Of a stretch of 23,016 bases of DNA, positions 4,559 to 23,016 are shown in pieces. Within the stretch, counting starts at the first letter, position 1; each line of letters starts with the position of its first letter. The position numbers and the translations under genes are program-made. The notes under the pieces were generated by a model. The model saw only the letters and a program-made list of their open reading frames with translations. It did not search any database and was not told the DNA's origin. This stretch comes from a virus, in IMG/VR virus record IMGVR_UViG_3300037628_000586, positions 1 to 23,016 of that record; one strand, written 5' to 3'.

Positions 4559-6850
4559 TTAATAAGTCCACGAAATACTAATAATTTCTATATTTCCGTT
4601 GTTCGTGCTTCTGTTTAACGCAATAGCTGAAGTAGTATCGGAAAAGGCTGGACCAGTAAACGTATATGTTAATTCTTGGAATTGCTCATCAAGAGCCAAT
4701 CCCGTAGACCCAGAAGAGCCGCTGGAAGATGTAAACAATGAAGACAGGGTATCTCCTGATGACGAATCTGTCCTAGCAATAATCGATACCGTAATTGTTG
4801 CACTATTATAAAAATATCTATTTTCATCCTCGTTCGGCATAATTTTAACGAGTTGCCCACCTATCAACGTAGTTGGCATTATTAAACTTTTACCTTTTAT
4901 TCTGGCTGTCGTTGTAAAGTTATAAGGAAGAAACGCCGCTGTGTTTTGTGCATTAACCGTGAATCCTCCCAGTGTACGTTCGACGTTTCCAGAAGATTTG
5001 TATCCATCCCATTCATCTCCCCACGATGATCCAGAAATCTCCATATACGTATTATTGTAACCATCGAAGTTCATTTGCACATCGTTGTTAGTTGTCTCAA
5101 AAACACTAGTACCTAAATTAAATGTTGCTGGATTTTTATCAGTAACAATGATTGTTCTTGCCTCACTTGGATCAATCCTATGGACATACTGAACGAGGTG
5201 TTGTCCATCAATCCTGTTATTTCGAATATCAATAGTAAAGGCATTATCTTGAACATTAGAACCGAAGGTCGGAGTGTCTGTCAATGATACATCAACAATT
5301 ATCCCTGACCCACTAGCACCCTGCTGTTCAAAATAATTATCATGTATCTGTACATGACGGCTTGAGGTTCTAATAAATGAAGCATCAGTATTAGTGCCTA
5401 ACACCATATCGTTACCAAATATATTATTCTGAGAACCAAAAGTTTGACCAGATACATCTAGTATTCCAACAGATTGAAATGATTGAAGTCGATTATTTGA
5501 TATTTCATTTATATCGCATCCATTTAAAACTATATCTCTATCAAATGTCCCAATAAAATTACAATCCGTTATTTTCGTATCAAACATTTTTGATGCAGTA
5601 AACGCGTCTCCTGTGTTGGTAGTTACGTTTTTAAAATCAATCCGTTGAAAATAGCCTTGAATAAATGGCGAATCTCCTGATCCATTAGCCAAAAATGTCG
5701 CTGTGTCGTTGATTTGAATACAATAATCTGCCATTAAAGTAACGTCTGTTAAGAAAAAACCGTATCGTCCTCCAGCTCCAGCAGGTTGCCATTTAATCAG
5801 AGTTTTCCCTGCATCAGTTCTAATAACTACATCTTTTTTACTTGTACCATATATGAATTTACCGTCAGGGGGATTAAGGGTATCTGAAACATAATAATCC
5901 CCATTAGGAAAAAGAAGACTGTCGTTGCCGGTATAATCAAGAGCGGCCTGAATACTCAATAGATCATCAGTCACATCGTCTCCAACAGCTCCCCATTCCT
6001 TGACATTTTCAAGGGGATAGGATAAGAGCCATGCGGCAGAGCCATCTCCACCAGACGGAACAATAATCGACCCTCCATCGTCAGTATAAGTACCAGGAGC
6101 AGCACCCGTAACCTTATAGCGTAAAGAACCGCCTCCACCATCGCCCCTAGTATAATAACCAAGAACAATCATATTGTCCACGGAAGATGTAATATCAACA
6201 TCTCGAAGATCGGCAATATTATAAACAGATGAATCTACAATAGAATCCCAGAAAGGAATCTTCCCCACTTGTCTTAAAAGTGTTGCACCAATCATAGCTG
6301 GATTAACAGATCCATCGTCAGATAATGGACGTATGATTGATATGTTTACCTCAGAGATAGGATCAGTAAGAACTGCGTCTGAAATAGTGATAAGAGTATT
6401 ATCGTTAGTGCTATTGTAAACAGCGGTAGAAACATCGCTATAGACCGTTGATCCAGATAATATAGCTTCAACACGACGATCCTCAAGAAAAACATCTGTC
6501 TGGTCGTCATCCAGAAAAAATTTTGACGTAGTATTATAAGTTGCTGTTGCTGTTGAAATATATTCATTACCACCAGAAATAGTAACGTCTTTATGAGTAC
6601 CGTCTTGGTTATGTTGAACATTCATCCTTGTTGTAGGGCTTGAAGTAGAACCTTCTAGAGAATTCAGCTCAATGATATTGTCGTTTACTGCACCATAAAC
6701 AATATCAAAATTTTGGTTTACCTCTGTTGCGTCCGCAACAGTACCGTTACTGAAAGCATATGGTTTAACAATTGGTGCCACTGCTGAAAGTGAATAGAGT
6801 GGAAATAAAAACATAAATAGAATTAGAGTTAAAAATAACTTCTTAATCAT
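4559..6850 (-). CDS. Tailspike / receptor-binding protein with pectate-lyase-like beta-helix, 763 aa
   Basis: Residues 1-24 look like a classical Sec signal peptide (Lys3-4, a Leu/Phe-rich core, then SLSA), which is unusual for a phage tail protein. Residues 30-55 (AFSNGTVADATEVNQNFD) match a short motif common near the start of phage tail fibres. Residues 228-275 contain GYYTRGDGGGG and a DDGG...GGDGSAAW stretch. From about 283 (VKEWGAVGDDVTDD) a pectate-lyase-type parallel beta-helix begins, with many N-rich repeat turns to about 590. The final ~170 residues look like a beta-sandwich. It probably binds or degrades host surface polysaccharide. The start overlaps the nozzle gene stop by ATGA, and GGAG precedes it. 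Confidence 0.88.
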   Translation of the reverse strand: MIKKLFLTLILFMFLFPLYSLSAVAPIVKPYAFSNGTVADATEVNQNFDIVYGAVNDNIIELNSLEGSTSSPTTRMNVQHNQDGTHKDVTISGGNEYISTATATYNTTSKFFLDDDQTDVFLEDRRVEAILSGSTVYSDVSTAVYNSTNDNTLITISDAVLTDPISEVNISIIRPLSDDGSVNPAMIGATLLRQVGKIPFWDSIVDSSVYNIADLRDVDITSSVDNMIVLGYYTRGDGGGGSLRYKVTGAAPGTYTDDGGSIIVPSGGDGSAAWLLSYPLENVKEWGAVGDDVTDDLLSIQAALDYTGNDSLLFPNGDYYVSDTLNPPDGKFIYGTSKKDVVIRTDAGKTLIKWQPAGAGGRYGFFLTDVTLMADYCIQINDTATFLANGSGDSPFIQGYFQRIDFKNVTTNTGDAFTASKMFDTKITDCNFIGTFDRDIVLNGCDINEISNNRLQSFQSVGILDVSGQTFGSQNNIFGNDMVLGTNTDASFIRTSSRHVQIHDNYFEQQGASGSGIIVDVSLTDTPTFGSNVQDNAFTIDIRNNRIDGQHLVQYVHRIDPSEARTIIVTDKNPATFNLGTSVFETTNNDVQMNFDGYNNTYMEISGSSWGDEWDGYKSSGNVERTLGGFTVNAQNTAAFLPYNFTTTARIKGKSLIMPTTLIGGQLVKIMPNEDENRYFYNSATITVSIIARTDSSSGDTLSSLFTSSSGSSGSTGLALDEQFQELTYTFTGPAFSDTTSAIALNRSTNNGNIEIISISWTY

Positions 6851-8340
6851 GGCATATCTCCTACTATTCTGTATCTAGTTGTAAAGCCAAAAAATTTTAT
6901 TCTGACTGTTGTTATGATTTCAAAACCTATTCTTTTTCCTCTTGCTAAATCAAGAAAAAATAAATCGCTTATTCTTGCAGAATCCCCCCAATTTGCATTT
7001 CCCCATTCATCAACACCCCATGTTAATTCCCTATTATCATATGACCTTGAAAACATTTCACCTTTCACAAAATCAACATCCCATTTATAGTAAATCCTAA
7101 ACAACGGTGATACGCCAACAGGCTCAAGAGTAGGTCTAAATATCCTCCAGATTTTATCAAAAGATGTCCCATTGTCTCGATAAGGAAACGTTATCCTAGT
7201 AGTAATAGGACTGCCATCATCGTCATCTCCAATATTCCCATAAACAAAACCATCTGAAGCATCTCCAAAAAGGAGTGTGCCAGGATCGTCTTTATCATTT
7301 GCTTCTTCAAAACAAGCTGCATTTATTTTTTTCCATGTCGTTATTGCTCCATTATAATCCCCATGGATAACGAGTGTATTTAATTCTGTATCGCCAAGCC
7401 ACAGAACAGCTCTTCGTTCTCCTGTATGAGCAATCATAAATGTTGATTGTTTCTGTGCGATGCTCATTTGATCAAAGAGGGGGGTATGTGTCTCAGATAG
7501 AGGAGAAATGCTATTCAATGAAAATGAATACAAATTATCATTGCCAAGAAATACACCTTCGTCGATTATAGCATCGGTCGATATTGCCCCAGTATTAGCC
7601 AACGGTGCGAGAGGTATTCTGAAATTATCCTTATTGGTCCCAAATAGAGGCCAAACTGTTTTCTGTTTAAATATCATCAGACCTTCAGCTTGCGCGGACA
7701 GGCCGATAATCCTATCACCATCACCATCTCTAACTTTGATGACATTGAGAGCAGGCCATGAATCATAGTCTTCACGATCACTAAAGCGAAGGAAACTTGG
7801 ATTATCTTCATCTACTGCCCATGCACGACTTGCATAAATTGCCAATATTTTCGACTTAGGTGGGGAGCCAAGTAAGTCGGTCGTTGTTGTTCCGTCGAAC
7901 CTGAACAAATTGTCAACACCATTTCCGAGAATCAATTGGTCTTTCCAGACTACCTTGCGGAGTTTTGCTGAGTCAACAGTTCTGACAGAAGCGTCGAAGG
8001 TTGCGAACGGTGTCGATCCATCCCATGACTTTGGACGCAATTCGGTCCCATGTTGAGCTACAAGATATTTTGATCCATCTTCTTTACTATAGCGGTGTAG
8101 AGAAATAATACTACCAGAGCCAAGAGAGGTTGTGTTTACTTTAGTTTTACCGAGTCTTGTCTGAAAAGGAACTTCTGGGGAAAGAACACAATTATATGCA
8201 CGAATAACTTGATTGTCGGCTATAAATTCAGGAGCTGTTTTTAGGTTTTCACCACCAGAAAAATCGGTATCAGATGTTGGTCTCCAATCGTCCTCGTCCA
8301 GTTGCATACTTGGAACAACGATTGGTTTTTTCCTTCTCAT
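6847..8340 (-). CDS. Tail nozzle protein, P22 gp10 / T7 gp12-like beta-propeller, 497 aa
   Basis: The N-terminal motif FSGGENLKTAPEFIADNQVI then RAYNCVLSPEVPFQTRLGKTK is the familiar opening of podovirus tail tubular protein B and P22 gp10-like proteins. The body contains repeated beta-propeller blades with F/W-rich strands (for example RAWAVDEDNPSFLRFSDRED and a WPLFG turn). The length is close to P22 gp10. The protein forms the lower tail tube to which tailspikes attach. Its order directly after the adaptor gene and before the tailspike supports this. The start overlaps the adaptor stop by ATGA, with GAGGGAT as ribosome site. Confidence 0.88.
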   Translation of the reverse strand: MRRKKPIVVPSMQLDEDDWRPTSDTDFSGGENLKTAPEFIADNQVIRAYNCVLSPEVPFQTRLGKTKVNTTSLGSGSIISLHRYSKEDGSKYLVAQHGTELRPKSWDGSTPFATFDASVRTVDSAKLRKVVWKDQLILGNGVDNLFRFDGTTTTDLLGSPPKSKILAIYASRAWAVDEDNPSFLRFSDREDYDSWPALNVIKVRDGDGDRIIGLSAQAEGLMIFKQKTVWPLFGTNKDNFRIPLAPLANTGAISTDAIIDEGVFLGNDNLYSFSLNSISPLSETHTPLFDQMSIAQKQSTFMIAHTGERRAVLWLGDTELNTLVIHGDYNGAITTWKKINAACFEEANDKDDPGTLLFGDASDGFVYGNIGDDDDGSPITTRITFPYRDNGTSFDKIWRIFRPTLEPVGVSPLFRIYYKWDVDFVKGEMFSRSYDNRELTWGVDEWGNANWGDSARISDLFFLDLARGKRIGFEIITTVRIKFFGFTTRYRIVGDMP

Positions 8341-14368: not shown

Positions 14369-16039
14369 TTATCTTCGATACACACCCTTCATATCGACTT
14401 TTCTTTTTTCCGTTTTATGCCGACCGCCACGGAATTTCCGGTCATCTCCAGCTTCAGTCATCATCAGGCAGTCGCTTTCATCCGGGGATTCCCAGTCCTG
14501 GCTGATTTTCATTTTCTTGATTTCTTTTTTCGAGCTTACAACAACCATGCCATTTTCTTCATGATATTTCATGCAACCTAATTGATCTATCAGATTCTGG
14601 TCAGGAGGAAGGGCGATCCTACCGTCTTCAAATCTGATCCGCAGTTTCCACCATAACTGATCACGGAGTTTTCTAAATCGTCTTCCTTCGAATTTTGGAT
14701 TCTCTTCTTCTGTGGGGCGTTTACGAACGTCAACGGAATAAATCTTCCGGTATCTCAATTCCTTGAGTCTGTCATGGACACCACACCCGACACCGATATT
14801 GTCAATGAAACATCCGTATCGGCCTTCATGCTCGTCGAGAACTTCAGCAACGATATTGGTGAACACCATTGTATCTGAGCCGTTAAATCGCAGGATCTCG
14901 TCTGACACTATTGGGCCATGCCTCTTCAGGACAACGGCACTATCGCCCCCGGCAGCAGGATCAACACCAATCATCCAGGGATCATTTATATCTGCTTCCA
15001 TCAGATTGTTTTCCCACCGTTCGACTGCCTCTTCAATTCGATCTTGAGGAATCAGGGTGTCGGCATCGGTCCTGGGTGGTAGACCACGAACTCGAATTCG
15101 ATATGGAGTGGAATCGCGACCGTATTTTTTCAGGAGGGTTTTGTTTCTGTTTTCCAGGACGGGCAGAAGATCAGAAGTCTCACCGTCCCAATGTAGTGGC
15201 AGAAACGGAGAGTTCTTCTTCTGACTATCAACGGCATATCCCTTCGAGCGGGTGGGATTGAATATGACCAGAATGAGATTAATAACACCGGTCAATGTAC
15301 CTTCGAGTGGTTTAAACACTCCGCTCTGGATACCGGACGCTTCGTCGGCCAAGATGAACATGTATTTCGCGTGTCGTCCACCGATACCTTCGGCTTGTTC
15401 TTCAACTGAATCTTTAACGTTAATTGTGACTGCCTCAAGAAAATGCGTTTCGCCGTCGTTCTTTTTTCCACCTACGATTTTTGCGAAGATCTTTTCAGAC
15501 TGGCGAACAAACATTTCGTCAAGCAGCCCATTCCTTTTTTTTCCGTCTTCATTATGAGATGAGGATAGTGAAGCTGTCTTACCCATTTCAGACCAGAAGA
15601 CGTTTTTCAATTGCTTTTTCGATGTGGCGGTTGCCATACATTTGCAGTCGCCTTGATCGTCACTGAAGACACTCAGAAACCACCACATCGCCAAGGCGCC
15701 GAAAAAATCTTTCCCTAAACCTTGACCGGACTGAATGGATATTCCGATGCGTGTTGCGTACCACGCTTCAGTCCACATTTCATCTTCGTCACCTTTGAGT
15801 TCTTCGCCCCTCCGTTTCTTCAGTTTTGCAGCGATGATTAGTCCCAGCTCGATAAAAGCTTTTTCCTGATCGGTAGTCAGGCCGGTTTTGGTAGGCGAGT
15901 CAACACCGGTAAGAGCCTTGAACTCTTTACGCAATGAATCACCGAAAAAATCGTCTACCCACTCTAGTGGTTGAGTCTGGTAGACGATATATCTTTCGGT
16001 TAATGCTTTAAGGGTTTTTTCTTCTTCGGAATTACTCAT
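14369..16039 (-). CDS. Terminase large subunit (packaging ATPase and nuclease), 556 aa
   Basis: The ATPase half has a Walker A-type loop SGQGLGKD (about 104-111), a Walker B YMFILADEAS with the Asp-Glu pair (about 232-233), and a coupling motif NPT. The nuclease half has MIGVDPAAGGDS, CFIDNIGVGCG and SPDESDC, supplying the three acidic metal ligands of the RNase-H-like fold. The length is normal for the family. The start is taken at the ATG at 16039, which overlaps the amidase stop. An in-frame ATG at 16057 lacks a ribosome site. It pumps DNA through the portal and cuts concatemers. The WEDD-like and HTH parts of the small subunit are encoded separately. Confidence 0.9.
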   Translation of the reverse strand: MSNSEEEKTLKALTERYIVYQTQPLEWVDDFFGDSLRKEFKALTGVDSPTKTGLTTDQEKAFIELGLIIAAKLKKRRGEELKGDEDEMWTEAWYATRIGISIQSGQGLGKDFFGALAMWWFLSVFSDDQGDCKCMATATSKKQLKNVFWSEMGKTASLSSSHNEDGKKRNGLLDEMFVRQSEKIFAKIVGGKKNDGETHFLEAVTINVKDSVEEQAEGIGGRHAKYMFILADEASGIQSGVFKPLEGTLTGVINLILVIFNPTRSKGYAVDSQKKNSPFLPLHWDGETSDLLPVLENRNKTLLKKYGRDSTPYRIRVRGLPPRTDADTLIPQDRIEEAVERWENNLMEADINDPWMIGVDPAAGGDSAVVLKRHGPIVSDEILRFNGSDTMVFTNIVAEVLDEHEGRYGCFIDNIGVGCGVHDRLKELRYRKIYSVDVRKRPTEEENPKFEGRRFRKLRDQLWWKLRIRFEDGRIALPPDQNLIDQLGCMKYHEENGMVVVSSKKEIKKMKISQDWESPDESDCLMMTEAGDDRKFRGGRHKTEKRKVDMKGVYRR

Positions 16040-16466
16040 GGAACCATTCGTAAACATTGAAACATGGGCATTTTTTCGTCACGCCCGGAAGATCGTTGTG
16101 GCCAACTGTGGCGGTGATTGTTGGAAACTGCGATTCAAGTTCAATACAGAGGTAGTTCAGCATCTTCATCTGGCGAAAAGTGAAGTTGAATTCAGGATTT
16201 CCATCGATATCTCTTCCACCAACCAGACAAATACCAACACTCTCTGTGTTAAAACCAGCAGCATGAGCACCCACTTCGTCACACACATCACCATCGCCAT
16301 CCAGATCCCGCCCGAGTTCCAAAGTACCGTCTCGGGGAATCACATAGGCGTATCCAATGGCGTCCCACCCCCGCTCTTCACGATGCCATCGGTCGATATC
16401 GCTGGCATGAATGTCCTGGCTGGGGTGGGTGTCGGAGCAATGGATGACAATCATTGTTTTAGTCAA
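16032..16466 (-). CDS. N-acetylmuramoyl-L-alanine amidase, T7 lysozyme-like endolysin, 144 aa
   Basis: It aligns by eye with T7 lysozyme through the whole chain: VIHCSDTHPSQDI at the start (His9 as a zinc ligand), IGYAYVIPRDGT (Tyr39 as catalytic candidate), GAHAAGFN, VGICLVGG, and GHNDLPGVTKKCPCFNV near the end (His123, Lys131 or Lys132, Cys133). It cleaves the amide bond between MurNAc and L-Ala in peptidoglycan for lysis. No signal peptide is seen, so a holin is needed. The TTG at 16466 has GGAGG at 5 nt; an ATG 12 bp upstream overlaps that ribosome site and is unlikely. A DLDGDGDVCDE insertion looks like a calcium-binding loop. The stop overlaps the large terminase start. Confidence 0.9.
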   Translation of the reverse strand: MTKTMIVIHCSDTHPSQDIHASDIDRWHREERGWDAIGYAYVIPRDGTLELGRDLDGDGDVCDEVGAHAAGFNTESVGICLVGGRDIDGNPEFNFTFRQMKMLNYLCIELESQFPTITATVGHNDLPGVTKKCPCFNVYEWFHE

Positions 16467-16478
16467 AATAACCTCCAA

Positions 16479-16553
16479 TGAGTGCTGGCAGGTGAACAGG
16501 ATTCACAAAATCCCTCTTAACGTTGCCTGCGCGTATCCTCTTAACAGCACTCA
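16479..16553 (-). other. Inverted repeat in the leader of the amidase gene
   Basis: The arms TGAGTGCTG (16479-16487) and CAGCACTCA (16545-16553) are a perfect 9-bp inverted repeat around a 57-nt loop. A smaller GCAGG/CCTGC pair lies inside. It fills the 95-bp gap between the acidic protein gene and the amidase start, so it could form a structured leader that tunes endolysin expression. Confidence 0.4.
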
Positions 16554-16561
16554 ACTGTGAA

Positions 16562-17347
16562 TTACTCTTCCGTGTCGGGACTGCGGGTGGTACGAGTGCC
16601 AGCCAGATGATTCTTCCTTGCCGGGGTTATTTTCCCGGCAGGCTTCGGATCGACCGGAGGGGAAATATATTCATCCAGGTCGCCAGCCATACCAATCTCG
16701 TCCTGCTCTTCGGCGGACATGACGGAGGTGTCGGGGGCGGTCGGGGGAATATCGTCCATCTGTGTGATTCCCATACCGAAGGTCGTTTCGACGGTTTCGA
16801 CTTCGGCGGCGATCATTTCGTGTTCATCAGAGACGACAGTACCAAAGGGAGCGTCAGATTCGGAAGCTGCTTTGTAGCCCGGTGCTTCATCGGCCAGGAC
16901 AAGTGAACCTTTTGCATCGTGTGCGGCTTTGGCTTCAGCTATACAACTCTGATCTTGGCCAACTTTGTCTTCACGATGAACAACATCACCGTGGATATCG
17001 TCAGAGGCCATCACGACTTCATCTTCGCAAAGAACAACGTCAAAACCCAATCTCGCTCGTTTCTGTAAATCAGCCACCAGAGCAACCGACGCACTCAACC
17101 GCGATTCCAGATCGTCAACTTCAGCGGCCAGCTTACTAATTTCCAGGTCCTTCTGATCCTTATTCCGTAGCGGTGAGAGAATAACGCCCATCGGGTTGAT
17201 AGCCAGTTCGCAAGTCAGATGACCGCCCCCGACAATCAGAAATCGGGCGGTGCGCTCCAGGCAGCGAGAATCGAAACGAATACTGTTTCCGTTGGCCAGT
17301 CCCTTCATCAGTTCAGCGATGCTCATGTCTTTTGTTACGTTACTCAT
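16562..17347 (-). CDS. Acidic protein with central coiled coil, 261 aa
   Basis: Residues 1-75 look folded, with a FLIVGGGHLTCELAINPMGV hydrophobic stretch (about 36-55). Residues about 82-114 form a likely coiled coil (KLAAEVDDLESRLSASVALV). The remainder, to the end, is very acidic and appears disordered, with Pro-rich and Ser/Thr-rich parts and a basic tail. The start overlaps the stop of the zinc-ribbon gene by ATGA and has AGGAG upstream. I do not recognise the family. It lies between early-late regulatory-looking genes and the endolysin, so either a regulatory or an assembly role is possible. Confidence 0.7.
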   Translation of the reverse strand: MSNVTKDMSIAELMKGLANGNSIRFDSRCLERTARFLIVGGGHLTCELAINPMGVILSPLRNKDQKDLEISKLAAEVDDLESRLSASVALVADLQKRARLGFDVVLCEDEVVMASDDIHGDVVHREDKVGQDQSCIAEAKAAHDAKGSLVLADEAPGYKAASESDAPFGTVVSDEHEMIAAEVETVETTFGMGITQMDDIPPTAPDTSVMSAEEQDEIGMAGDLDEYISPPVDPKPAGKITPARKNHLAGTRTTRSPDTEE

Positions 17348-17586
17348 TTGCGTCTCCTCTGGTTTGTTAGAAATTGTGTCATTTCTTCTGGTTTAATGGG
17401 GGTGAGAAGAAAAATATGTTTACAATGTTCACACTGAGAGGATCTAAAAAAATCGTTCTCAGGTAGTTTAGTGAGTTTGTGTCGTGTCTCACAACAAACA
17501 GGACACCAACCCCTTTCAACTAATCCCTGTTCGTGGTCTGTCATGACGGGAAATTTAAAACCAAAAAACATACTGTTTGCGTCCAT
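17344..17586 (-). CDS. Small zinc-ribbon protein, 80 aa
   Basis: Two Cys pairs, CPVC (about 28-31, followed by an extra Cys) and CEHC (about 52-55), are spaced as in a zinc ribbon. The rest of the protein is basic. Such small phage proteins often bind nucleic acid or host transcription proteins, but the target cannot be told here. The ATG has AAAGGAG just upstream. It is the first gene after a putative promoter (17614-17641) and is coupled by ATGA to the acidic coiled-coil gene. Confidence 0.75.
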   Translation of the reverse strand: MDANSMFFGFKFPVMTDHEQGLVERGWCPVCCETRHKLTKLPENDFFRSSQCEHCKHIFLLTPIKPEEMTQFLTNQRRRK

Positions 17587-17613
17587 CTCGTCTCCTTTCG
17601 TCTTTAGATATTG

Positions 17614-17641
17614 AGTTTACTTTAATTTTTGGGAAAGTCAA
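17614..17641 (-). promoter_or_regulatory. Putative sigma70-like promoter for the zinc-ribbon to large-terminase genes
   Basis: TTGACT (17641-17636) and TAAACT (17619-17614) are separated by 16 nt, upstream of the zinc-ribbon gene with a leader of about 20 nt. The TTGACT box is the last of three copies repeated by the adjacent 14-bp tandem repeat. Confidence 0.45.
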
Positions 17642-17678
17642 GAGTCATCAGTCAAGAGTCATCAGTCAAGGGTCATCA
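17637..17678. repeat. Three tandem copies of a 14-bp repeat
   Basis: GTCAAGAGTCATCA is repeated head to tail at 17637-17650, 17651-17664 and 17665-17678, the last with one change (A to G). The third copy contains the stop codon of the RMF-like gene. Read on the minus strand, each copy supplies a TTGAC box. Confidence 0.9.
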
Positions 17679-17818
17679 TATACCCAAGCATCATCTTCCT
17701 CTGCATCAAAAAATCCGTCACGCCAATTGTCCCATTGCGCGTCGGCATCGTCGTAGGGATTCATCTCTGAATCGTCACCTCGGTCGTAAGCCTCTCGTCC
17801 TTTGTCGTATGCAGTCAT
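17666..17818 (-). CDS. RMF/CrpP-like microprotein, 50 aa
   Basis: A 50-aa protein starting at an ATG directly after the stop codon of the upstream gene, with AAAGGGA as ribosome site. The pattern AYDKGREAYDRGD, NPYDDADAQW and WRDGFFDAEED matches the small RMF/CrpP-like group by its Gly-x-x-Ala helix, Asn-Pro-Tyr turn and Trp-x-x-Gly-Phe helix. RMF binds the ribosome and causes it to dimerise and go dormant. Many phages carry related short proteins of unknown role. Unlike the basic RMF, this one is strongly acidic, so ribosome binding is doubtful. Its 3' end lies inside a tandem repeat. Confidence 0.75.
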   Translation of the reverse strand: MTAYDKGREAYDRGDDSEMNPYDDADAQWDNWRDGFFDAEEDDAWVYDDP

Positions 17819-18187
17819 TTATTTTCCCTTTGGGACTACAGCGTCTATTACGGCATCAATACCTCCGCGTGAATAGACCTTACGAAGATAAGTTCTTCTC
17901 GCTGAATCTCTCCGTTTATATTTGGCTTCAAGTTCAGCACCCCAACATCTTTTTTTGAAATGCTTAAAATCTTTTATAAGATCTCCATTAAAAGCATCTC
18001 CAAACCAAAACTGACCTCTAGCCAATCTCACATATCGATGACAGAGTTTACATGTCCCAACCCATCTCGGACCACTAAAACCACAATGTTGCTCACGACG
18101 CCAAATAAGAGTATGTTTACTTAATCCTTTTTCGGTTTCGGCTTTTAATTGAGGAATTGTTTTTCTTTTACGAGAAACTATATCCAT
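17819..18187 (-). CDS. Basic Cys-containing protein, 122 aa
   Basis: A basic 122-aa protein with RKRKTIPQLKAETEKGLSKH at the start, a Cys/His cluster (HCGFSGPRWVGTCKLCHRYV, about 34-53) and a later Cys (about 81, KKRCWGAE). The arrangement could bind zinc. The start resembles the opening of NinG/Rap-type recombination proteins, but the DAGHF and CNxCN motifs of that family are missing, so I do not assign it. The C-terminus is basic and helical. GGGAGAG lies before the ATG and is partly covered by a small hairpin. The stop codon is followed at once by the RMF-like gene. Confidence 0.7.
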   Translation of the reverse strand: MDIVSRKRKTIPQLKAETEKGLSKHTLIWRREQHCGFSGPRWVGTCKLCHRYVRLARGQFWFGDAFNGDLIKDFKHFKKRCWGAELEAKYKRRDSARRTYLRKVYSRGGIDAVIDAVVPKGK

Positions 18188-18196
18188 TTTACTCTC

Positions 18197-18211
18197 CCAT
18201 ACCCTGTATGG
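18197..18211 (-). other. Hairpin overlapping the ribosome site of the 122-aa gene
   Basis: CCATAC (18197-18202) and GTATGG (18206-18211) form a perfect 6-bp stem with a 3-nt loop. On the minus strand its 3' arm covers the first two G of the GGGAGAG ribosome site. It could dampen translation or be bound by a regulator. Confidence 0.5.
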
Positions 18212-18369
18212 TCACTTTTAAAACTACAGAATCTAAACATAGGTACGATATAGATATATGCAGGTCGTAAGACGCCTCACCCCAAAGACCCCGGGGGGGG
18301 TGTCTCATTGTGTCATTCTTCCAGTTCTGGGCAAAAAAAGAAGGTGTTGTGCCTCATAAGCTATTAATA
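18212..18369. other. Intergenic region with a C4-G8 tract and a T-rich stretch
   Basis: No gene is visible here. The region holds CCCC followed by eight G (18289-18300), flanked by CACCCC and GGGGTG that could form a stem. It also holds an AT-rich patch near 18240-18260 and, on the minus strand, a run of seven T about 40 nt after the upstream gene's stop. There is no convincing stem before that T-run. One TTGTGC (18347-18352) matches the hexamer repeated in the divergent region. Confidence 0.5.
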
Positions 18370-18939
18370 TTACTCATCTTTATCCTCTATAGCTTGCCGC
18401 TTAATAGGCGGCAAGTCGTCATCGTCTTCCTTAATTAACACCGCATCCTCAACGCCAAGCATATACCCTGTGGCCCTTGCCATCGCCCTGGCTAACAGGT
18501 CTAGCGTGCTCCCTTCGGCGTCATGGCCACGCTCAAGGCGTTCTTTATCGTAGAATATACCGAAGATTGTCGCGCAGTCTCGGGGGCTCGCGTTTTTTAG
18601 CTTGTCGGAGGTAATCCCACTTAGTGCCGTCTGCTGCATACTGGCCAGCATGTCTGCTCTGTGCGTCTTGAACTCTTTCAGTCCGGGTATAATACCGGTC
18701 CATGTCGTGCTGTTGCGTGTGCAATGGGCCTTTAGATTAGTAGTCGTGCAACCGAAGAGGACCGATGCCTGCTCAAGTGTTAAATCAGGCTTAGCTATCT
18801 TGGCGAACTTGATCATCTCAAAAGTAAGACCCTTGTTGGAGGTAATGCTGACGTTATTGGTTGTCGGTTCTTCCGGTGTGATTTCGTCGGCTGGTTCAGT
18901 TGGTGAGTCGTTGAGAGGTAAGAAGTCGTTTGCGTCCAT
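18370..18939 (-). CDS. Putative terminase small subunit / HTH DNA-binding protein, 189 aa
   Basis: The N-terminal ~35 residues are acidic and disordered. Residues about 38-75 (FEMIKFAKIAKPDLTLEQAS then VLFGCTTTNLKAHCTR) look like a helix-turn-helix of the kind used by small terminases to bind pac or cos DNA. A helical core follows (KTHRADMLASMQQTALSGIT, then SPRDCATIFGIFYDKERLER), which resembles the oligomerisation region of these proteins. The C-terminus is acidic (EDDDD). It is the first gene of the leftward unit that contains the large terminase, which supports the call. A transcriptional regulator is the main alternative. No ribosome site precedes the ATG; a promoter ends just before it. 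Confidence 0.7.
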   Translation of the reverse strand: MDANDFLPLNDSPTEPADEITPEEPTTNNVSITSNKGLTFEMIKFAKIAKPDLTLEQASVLFGCTTTNLKAHCTRNSTTWTGIIPGLKEFKTHRADMLASMQQTALSGITSDKLKNASPRDCATIFGIFYDKERLERGHDAEGSTLDLLARAMARATGYMLGVEDAVLIKEDDDDLPPIKRQAIEDKDE

Positions 18940-18946
18940 AGTTGAA

Positions 18947-18975
18947 GTTTTAGCAGATTATGAGTGAGATGTCAA
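18947..18975 (-). promoter_or_regulatory. Putative promoter of the leftward operon, predicted leaderless start
   Basis: TTGACA (18975-18970) and TAAAAC (18952-18947) are spaced by 17 nt. Transcription would begin near 18940, one base before the ATG at 18939, and no ribosome site is present, so the message may be leaderless. The block carries the CAGATTATG ... ATGTCAA element also seen at 14345-14365. Confidence 0.5.
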
Positions 18976-19050
18976 CCAAACTAGGTGTGTATTCTAATCC
19001 TACAAAAAGCACAAGCGTATTCCTCAGTGATAACGTGCAGTTAAGCCATA

Positions 19051-19080
19051 AACGCACAAGCAAACACAAGCAAACACAAG
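19051..19080. repeat. 10-bp tandem repeats (iteron-like)
   Basis: CAAACACAAG occurs twice head to tail (19061-19080), preceded by a related copy AACGCACAAG (19051-19060). The 10-bp period places each copy on the same face of the helix, as expected for cooperative protein binding. Confidence 0.8.
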
Positions 19081-19092
19081 CGTTTGTGCTTT
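19075..19092. repeat. Left arm of an 18-bp perfect inverted repeat
   Basis: CACAAGCGTTTGTGCTTT is the exact reverse complement of 19299-19316. Each arm also contains an imperfect dyad, CACAA-N4-TTGTG, typical of a dimer binding site. Confidence 0.85.
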
Positions 19093-19176
19093 GAAATAGT
19101 CCGAAAAGCTCAATGATTTCAATGTCCTACACTACCCTATATATATAAAACACAAATAAACACATACACACACCCC

Positions 19177-19210
19177 TATACGCGCGCGCACGTGCGTACG
19201 CATGCGTACA
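19177..19210. other. 34-bp perfect alternating pyrimidine-purine tract (Z-DNA candidate)
   Basis: Every base from 19177 to 19210 alternates pyrimidine and purine, with a CGCGCGCG core. It contains the 10-bp palindrome CGCACGTGCG (19187-19196) and the 14-bp palindrome GTACGCATGCGTAC (19196-19209). It lies midway between the two arms of the 18-bp inverted repeat. Confidence 0.85.
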
Positions 19211-19298
19211 AGGGGGCTCTGTTTTGGCTGTGTTTCTGTGCTTTCTGTGTCGGCTGGCCTGATTGTGTAATGATATTATATAGTTAAGTAGGCACAAA

Positions 19299-19316
19299 AA
19301 AGCACAAACGCTTGTG
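19299..19316. repeat. Right arm of the 18-bp perfect inverted repeat
   Basis: AAAGCACAAACGCTTGTG pairs exactly with 19075-19092. With the next base it holds the near-palindrome GCACAA-ACGC-TTGTGC (19302-19317), matched at 14 of 16 positions. Confidence 0.85.
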
Positions 19317-19370
19317 CGCGGCTGTGTTTCGTTGTGCAAGTGCTTGATATTGTTGGGTATTATCCGTTGT

Positions 19371-19538
19371 ATGGTGTCAGATAATGAGAAAAGACGGTGT
19401 ACTGTGTATGGCGTTGTAATTGAGCGCACAAAGAAATGTGCTCTAGTTTGCTTAGTGATTCCACGTGGTTACAAAGAAAACGCACAAGATAATAATAAAC
19501 GTCGATTATCGGTTGACACCGTACACCGTAGGGTGTAG
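19371..19538 (+). CDS. Possible 55-aa early protein
   Basis: An open frame from an ATG at 19371 encodes a basic 55-aa peptide with the stretch VYGVVIERTKKCALVCLVIP, which is patterned like a folded protein with two beta strands. There is no good ribosome site, and the frame runs through the repeat-rich control region and overlaps the dyad at 19511-19547. It may be a real small early gene or only a chance open frame. No family is recognised. Confidence 0.25.
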   Translation: MVSDNEKRRCTVYGVVIERTKKCALVCLVIPRGYKENAQDNNKRRLSVDTVHRRV

Positions 19539-19547
19539 GGTTGACAC
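19511..19547 (+). promoter_or_regulatory. Dyad flanked by two TTGACA boxes, early-operon control site
   Basis: GGTTGACAC is repeated at 19511-19519 and 19539-19547 (28-bp period). Between them lies a perfect hairpin/dyad TACACC-GTAG-GGTGTA (19522-19537). The boxes look like -35 elements, but no good -10 is visible at 16-18 bp, so a regulator-dependent promoter or operator is possible. Confidence 0.45.
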
Positions 19548-19615
19548 AGAAGAAAAAGAAAGAAACTGAAACACCATACATAGTAGGGATCAAAACCGTA
19601 CTCAGTGGGGACGCT

Positions 19616-22665: not shown

Positions 22666-23016
22666 ATGACCACATCAACCGAACTCCACGAAAAAACTCT
22701 TCAATCCATCCCGTCAGACTTCCCATTTCCTTTGTCTCCTGATGATCTCAGTTACGATCTGGCGACAAGGGCTCACAGTGGGACGAGTTTTTCACCAGAA
22801 TTACGAGGGCGACAAGAACAAGCCGGATATATTGGCGATATGGTCGGACTCTGGGAAAATCTAAAAGAAAAAGCAGATACACCGGAAAAACTGACGACAC
22901 TATCGACGGCTCTTGAGACTTACCGTGAAGGCTACCTAAAAAAAGATTCTGCCCATTTACAAGCAAAATCACGCTGCCTTTCTACTATGATCACCGGTCC
23001 ATCTGGGTTCAATGTT
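22666..23016 (+). CDS. Partial conserved phage/mobile-element protein (N-terminal 117 aa)
   Basis: The frame is open from an ATG at 22666 (AAAGGGG upstream) to the window edge. The motifs RAHSGTSFSPELRGRQEQAG (about 40-60), TYREGYLKKDSAHLQAKSR, and SRCLSTMITGPSGFNV near the cut end match a family I recall in phage and plasmid accessory regions, where a similar His-Ser-Gly-Thr-Ser-Phe and Met-Ile-Thr-Gly-Pro pair is strongly conserved. Its function is unknown to me. The missing C-terminus could hold further domains. Confidence 0.7.
   Translation, partial: MTTSTELHEKTLQSIPSDFPFPLSPDDLSYDLATRAHSGTSFSPELRGRQEQAGYIGDMVGLWENLKEKADTPEKLTTLSTALETYREGYLKKDSAHLQAKSRCLSTMITGPSGFNV

Follow-up and report, generated by a model that had tools for sequence, protein, structure and literature searches.

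Between the leftward and rightward gene arms of the IMG/VR virus record IMGVR_UViG_3300037628_000586, positions 19009–19487 hold an array of short GCACAA half-sites that is probably (we would say at roughly 60 %) the iteron part of the phage replication origin, working in the manner of PICI and SaPI origins and read by an initiator whose gene would lie past the end of the contig. The window analysed here is the whole virus record of 23 016 bp, which is probably a genome fragment. The ordered symmetry of the array, the presence of the same plan in other letters in a related locus (L215), and the location of other relatives' arrays beside or inside replication genes argue for an origin. Against it stand the lack of an initiator gene in the 23 kb fragment, the position of the array, which unlike those of most relatives does not adjoin a replication gene, and a centre of uneven AT content (38 % AT at 19175–19224). 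The initial annotation had already suggested a phage replication origin; this is the best supported reading, but its support comes by way of the relatives and not from the window sequence alone.

Clustering and geometry of the half-sites

GCACAA or its complement TTGTGC occurs 14 times as an exact copy in the 23 kb record, and nine of these copies lie within 19009–19487, at 19009, 19054, 19084 (minus), 19292, 19302, 19312 (minus), 19332 (minus), 19426 and 19482. The expectation for the record is 12, equivalent to about 0.25 by chance per 480 bp; local dinucleotide content predicts about 1.0 copies in the region against the nine observed, and 5000 dinucleotide shuffles of the region yielded six copies at most (mean 1.0). 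The hexamer ranks first for clustering among those of the record, and among 300 order-3 Markov simulations covering the whole record, two produced a hexamer cluster of eight copies and none a cluster of nine or more. The dense cluster of nine copies in about 480 bp, as first annotated, is thus confirmed by counts, shuffles and simulations alike, as is the presence of copies on both strands by their exact positions; the 10-bp tandem iterons described at 19051–19080 are real, and the hexamer is not equally common elsewhere, the remaining 22.5 kb having just five copies.

For the analysis of spacing, the half-site set comprised GCACAA and its one- and two-base variants ACACAA, ACACAG and GCACAT. 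Exactly 10 bp separates eight pairs of half-sites and 20 bp separates five; spacings of 6–9 or 11–16 bp do not occur. Random placement gives an expectation of 0.63 pairs at 10 bp, with a maximum of 5 in 20 000 trials. A protein bound at half-sites stepped in this way would occupy one face of the helix. The components of the array are as follows.

19009–19014, plus strand: single outlying half-site
19054–19089: left iteron block, half-sites at 19054 (plus), 19064 (plus, ACACAA), 19074 (plus, ACACAA) and 19084 (minus), in 10-bp steps
19074 (plus)/19084 (minus): palindrome ACACAAGCGTTTGTGC, formed by the last two half-sites of the left block
19292–19337: right iteron block, half-sites at 19292 (plus), 19302 (plus), 19312 (minus), 19322 (minus, ACACAG) and 19332 (minus), in 10-bp steps
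19302–19317: palindrome GCACAAACGCTTGTGC, in the right block
19426–19441: inverted half-site pair 10 bp apart, GCACAA at 19426 (plus) and GCACAT at 19436 (minus)
19482–19487, plus strand: single outlying half-site

The order plus, plus, plus, minus at 19054–19089 is mirrored by plus, minus, minus, minus at 19302–19337 about a centre at 19195.5, so that eight sites pair; the same symmetry is apparent as an inverted repeat of 39 nt, 82 % complementary, with arms 206 bp apart. The array lies outside the assigned genes, and the ORFs that cross it are short and unsupported. A role for the palindromes as intrinsic terminators was considered and rejected as the main one, most half-sites being outside hairpins.

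The centre of the array and its flanks

Several further elements lie between the two blocks or close to them.

18947–18975, minus strand: sigma-70-like site TTGACA-17-TAAAAC (10/12) for the leftward arm, its end immediately preceding the annotated start of terS; consensus match only
19139–19165: AT-rich stretch TATATATAAAACACAAATAAACACA between the blocks (50-bp windows 68 % AT), candidate melting site by its composition
19177–19210: alternating purine/pyrimidine tract of 34 bp, flanked by CCCCT/AGGGG, Z-DNA-prone by a sequence rule
19264–19291: second AT-rich stretch
19337–19349, minus strand: match TATCAAGCACTTG to the IHF consensus, directly next to the outermost half-site on the right; the window has four such matches, so the evidence is weak
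19366–19612: second repeat family, near GACACCATACA, with members at 19368 (minus), 19405 (minus), 19515 (plus) and 19570 (plus), separate from the GCACAA array

The centre of the 34-bp tract is 2 bp off the symmetry centre of the blocks, and the tract is the sole alternating run longer than 14 bp in the record, the second longest being 14 bp. It has a weak tendency to form a hairpin (z −1.7). The segment between the blocks is mixed in composition, with 68 % AT at 19100–19174 before the GC-richer stretch mentioned above, and any role of the centre in Z-DNA formation or melting is a guess from base composition and order. The mirror symmetry, the central tract and the IHF-consensus match were all absent from the initial annotation. 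The GACACCATACA-like repeats surround or overlap TTGACA boxes where the rightward arm starts, and constitute a separate candidate operator of that arm.

Mirror-image blocks about a central tract that contains CGCGCG, the right one adjoined by an IHF-like match, could also be read as the site of a recombinase or telomere enzyme, in which the blocks would be the arm sites of an attachment site or a protelomerase target and the alternating tract its core. This is the least likely of the readings considered, and we give it very little weight: the window has no recognisable integrase or protelomerase gene, the central tract falls short of a long perfect palindrome, and no array-bearing relative was seen with such an enzyme adjoining.

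There is no strict match to a DnaA box. Positions 18940–19610 gave no Rfam match, no DNA similarity to plasmids, and three short, marginal matches to phages (E 0.2–0.7). The perfect palindrome GCACAARCGYTTGTGC was scanned for in viral contigs, where its 23 matches are apparently due to chance and none is accompanied by the array. Cumulative GC skew, proposed earlier as a check for an origin here, does have a minimum and sign change near 18.5 kb, but these prove nothing, and the skew was not used as evidence because the minimum coincides with the change of coding strand.

Neighbouring genes

The leftward arm contains late genes, encoding an amidase, the large terminase subunit (TerL), a portal protein (PF23899) and a major capsid protein (PF20036). 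The two genes on which the comparisons below depend are the following.

14369–16057, minus strand: terL, terminase large subunit
18370–18939, minus strand: terS, terminase small subunit, first gene of the leftward arm, with a predicted helix-turn-helix and a helical domain

Family searches with the product of 18370–18939 returned no significant match, and no close relative emerged from scans for exact peptides of TerS, TerL and the capsid protein. Homologues in viral contigs came to light only when short hand-made variants of the conserved FGIFYDKERLERG motif served as the search device; tblastn with the unaltered protein of the window confirmed these matches, and a second scan with an alignment of 11 real sequences led to 60 loci. 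In more than 20 of the 60, a TerL related to that of the window (31–42 % identity) is encoded downstream of the homologue, typically within 0.3–2.6 kb; the L205 locus, for example, has the order terS, terL (37 % identical), portal-sized gene. Because its homologues adjoin terL upstream in more than 20 contigs, 18370–18939 is, by this homology and gene order, terS and not a regulator. A structure model of TerS built with 11 homologues has moderate confidence (pLDDT 70) and no significant match in the PDB; the fold predicted without an alignment is useless.

Between terS and terL (14369–18939) the window has the amidase gene and several small genes, some of them Zn-ribbon-like, while in most relatives the two terminase genes are far closer. 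At 18288–18302, in the gap that separates terS from the leftward gene after it, CCCC is followed by a run of G. At the other end of the window, the last, truncated ORF (22666–23016) has no Pfam match and a distant homologue (37 %) in the unannotated gut phage contig MT835776.

The array sits 70–550 bp upstream of terS, its neighbours being terS and some small unknown ORFs. The right arm, 3.5 kb of which precede the record end, has no recognisable initiator or repressor gene, and the rightward neighbours examined had no family match to a small repressor or excisionase. The earlier remark that the window has no known initiator gene is right, the record being a 23 kb fragment.

Since the array is exactly between the divergent arms, its main rival explanation is a switch operator, in which a small cooperative DNA-binding protein would coat the 10-bp-spaced half-sites and shut off or swap leftward (late) and rightward (early) transcription. 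The operator rows of P2 Cox and 186 Apl lie in switch regions of this kind, between divergent promoters. Such rows of short sites are known to hold a linear repressor multimer (PMC7250872); promoter-like sequences, consensus matches only, are present on the left (TTGACA-17-TAAAAC) and on the right (TTGACA boxes) of our array, and the arrays of two relatives, L113 and L217, are likewise at the point of divergence. However, neither a repressor gene nor a Cox/Apl-like or integrase gene was recognised in the window, few half-sites overlap the promoter-like sites, and the second repeat family (near 19368–19580) already resembles a rightward operator. Unlike the P2 and 186 rows, moreover, the window array forms mirror blocks about a special centre, and most relatives' arrays adjoin helicase genes and not divergent promoters. 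We consider the switch operator unlikely, although it has a better claim than the other two alternatives. The early/late switch that the initial annotation suggested would be of this kind; its one direct support is the position of the array between the divergent arms.

Arrays in related phages

No GCACAA array was found in any relative, and capsid and TerL alignments, in which relatives reach at most 38 and 33 % identity, respectively, contributed none. What is kept in related phages is the kind of array and sometimes its place, and not the letters of the hexamer. The locus closest in plan is L215, whose TerS is 32 % identical to that of the window over 175 residues and whose TerL is 38 % identical. 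Eleven copies of ATTACA occur there at 7632–7928, immediately before terS (about 7953), flanking a 26-bp alternating tract and a TATATATA / TATATATAATATATAT stretch; the tract is the sole alternating run longer than 14 bp in the 450-bp windows of the locus, the second longest being 14 bp. Upstream of the array is a gene for an 896-residue Toprim primase-helicase. An IS200/IS605-type pair (Y1 transposase and OrfB) at 5613–7269 splits this gene from the iteron array.

In other phages of the TerS family, arrays lie inside the helicase gene (L205, L227), at its 3' end (L204) or just before it (L250). The array of L217 is upstream of terS, beside leftward genes; it is AT-rich and of low complexity, and is weaker evidence. 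Most other loci with a TerS homologue had no array by the same scan, and a scan of genome contigs gave one MAG contig, without an array. Repeats of other forms were also seen. The otherwise unrelated contig L012 has, at 1716–1905, GTGCTCAAT repeats arranged in an array along with a GCACAAGCGCTTGTGC palindrome, and L210 has at its very end (1–138), about 1.2 kb before terS, about nine head-to-tail units of 15 bp (GGTTAGCCCTGGAAA-like), followed at 239–277 by two TGTTAC...GTAACA palindromes 20 bp apart.

The proximity of array and terS, with the window array beginning 70 bp upstream of the gene and those of L215 and L217 also upstream of it, invites a comparison with packaging sites: the helix-turn-helix circle of a TerS ring would bind the phased half-sites flanking a cut site beside its own gene. 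SPP1 pac likewise has repeats that adjoin terS and flank a central segment, with direct repeats spanning the terS start and pacL and pacR around the cut (PMC4737164). Yet the half-sites of the window are hexamers at a strict helical phase, the DNA-binding domain of SF6/SPP1 TerS has little preference for the pac repeats (PMC4737164), and the L205 array lies about 4 kb from terS, inside the helicase gene, in a locus whose terL is 37 % identical to ours. The arrays of relatives do not seem to track TerS; near-identical TerS proteins occur with different arrays in the AAA_25 group described below (97 % in L135/L144, 88 % in L145/L181), which bears on the window by analogy, the TerS family being another one. 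A pac site is accordingly disfavoured, and we think it improbable. The suggestion that the 18370–18939 product binds the array is likewise disfavoured: the product is TerS, and the mismatches between array and TerS in relatives argue against it.

Covariation of array and helicase C-terminus in one group of relatives

Among the contigs related by TerL, 17 carry the gene of an AAA_25 primase-helicase (PF13481). Hexamers clustered on both strands are present in 16 of the 17. An array lies just 3' of the AAA_25 gene in 15 of the 17 contigs, or 11 of 13 distinct arrays, compared with 9 of 85 random control windows (Fisher p 4e-10, about 1e-7 on distinct arrays); the shuffle test that defines an array is lenient, controls exceeding it in about 10 % of cases. 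The hexamers of the group vary, and include GGGACA, GTAGAC, ACTACA, GGAACA, TCGGAA and GTTACA as well as others.

Between phages with different hexamers, mean identity is 63 % for the helicase (RepA) core, 57 % for TerS and 83 % for TerL, and 30 % for the 110 C-terminal residues of the helicase. L170 and L194, which have GTAGAC in common, are 90 % identical in the core and 85 % in the C-terminus; this test of covariation includes two same-hexamer pairs only. L145 (TCGGAA) and L181 (GTTACA) share 87 % of the core, 88 % of TerS and 91 % of the next gene, and 25 % of the C-terminus, and L135 (AGACAA) and L144 (TACAAA) share 97 % of TerS and 43 % of the C-terminus. Arrays in this group thus vary together with the C-terminal part of the helicase, independently of TerS, which makes that C-terminus, most simply, the putative reader of the array there. 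In the gap 3' of the AAA_25 gene of L135, L144, L145 and L181 (e.g. 8150–8270 in L145), a central hairpin GAGAGTCT...AGACTCG is nearly unchanged, and around it the flanking iterons, together with the helicase C-terminus, have been exchanged.

The window is linked to the AAA_25 group by TerL (about 30 %) and a similar gene order only, and the transfer of function from the group to the window rests on the common plan of the arrays and on the intermediate case of L215. We infer three things in making it: that the window array functions as those of its relatives do, that its reader is a helicase initiator with a gene beyond the contig, and that melting occurs at the centre.

Working model and known systems

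Our working hypothesis is that the 6-bp iterons form an origin recognised by an initiator of the phage itself, probably a helicase or primase-helicase, whose gene would lie to the right of the contig end. A small DNA-reading domain of the initiator would bind each half-site along one face of the helix, and the mirror-image blocks would load the initiator from both sides. The segment between the blocks, AT-rich and with its 34-bp alternating tract, might then melt, allowing forks to leave in both directions. The occupied array may, in addition, block or switch the divergent promoters.

Origins in which repeated initiator sites lie beside an AT-rich stretch are familiar from lambda, where the initiator is the O protein. 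The window array resembles the lambda type as a repeated-site phage origin beside such a stretch, but the lambda iterons are longer, few, internally palindromic and inside the O gene, whereas ours are half-sites of 6 bp, arranged as mirror images between genes. Closer parallels exist with the satellite elements. PICI origins have an AT-rich region flanked by two sets of iterons (PMC6092414), and SaPI Rep recognises its iterons through a C-terminal domain (PMC7581432). The window array has in common with these origins many very short iterons, direct and inverted, in two sets about a central segment, and in relatives arrays are placed upstream of terS and 3' of a primase-helicase gene, the C-terminus of the enzyme differing along with the iteron. 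It differs in that the window belongs not to a satellite but to a phage, which itself encodes capsid, portal and terminase proteins, in its position between divergent arms with no rep gene adjoining (the 3' placement being met in the AAA_25 relatives), in the strict 10-bp steps of its half-sites and in the long alternating tract at its centre. Because the element is a phage, and because no rep gene precedes the array in the window, we do not file the array as a PICI/SaPI origin.

It is tempting to speculate more widely, and we do so tentatively, at somewhat less than even odds, that many uncultured tailed phages with this packaging module have a satellite-like origin in which the iterons are swapped jointly with the C-terminus of the helicase-initiator while the rest of the origin and its neighbours stay nearly unchanged, the result being mutually private origins; in the lineage of the window, the origin would lie between divergent arms and have a long Z-prone central tract. 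The occurrence of this plan among ordinary tailed phages, with an iteron that changes with the helicase C-terminus, would link the replication modules of satellites and phages. If this is true, origin specificity would be readable from sequence, each pair of array and helicase would be a natural experiment, and the separate replication of related phages within one cell could be explained.
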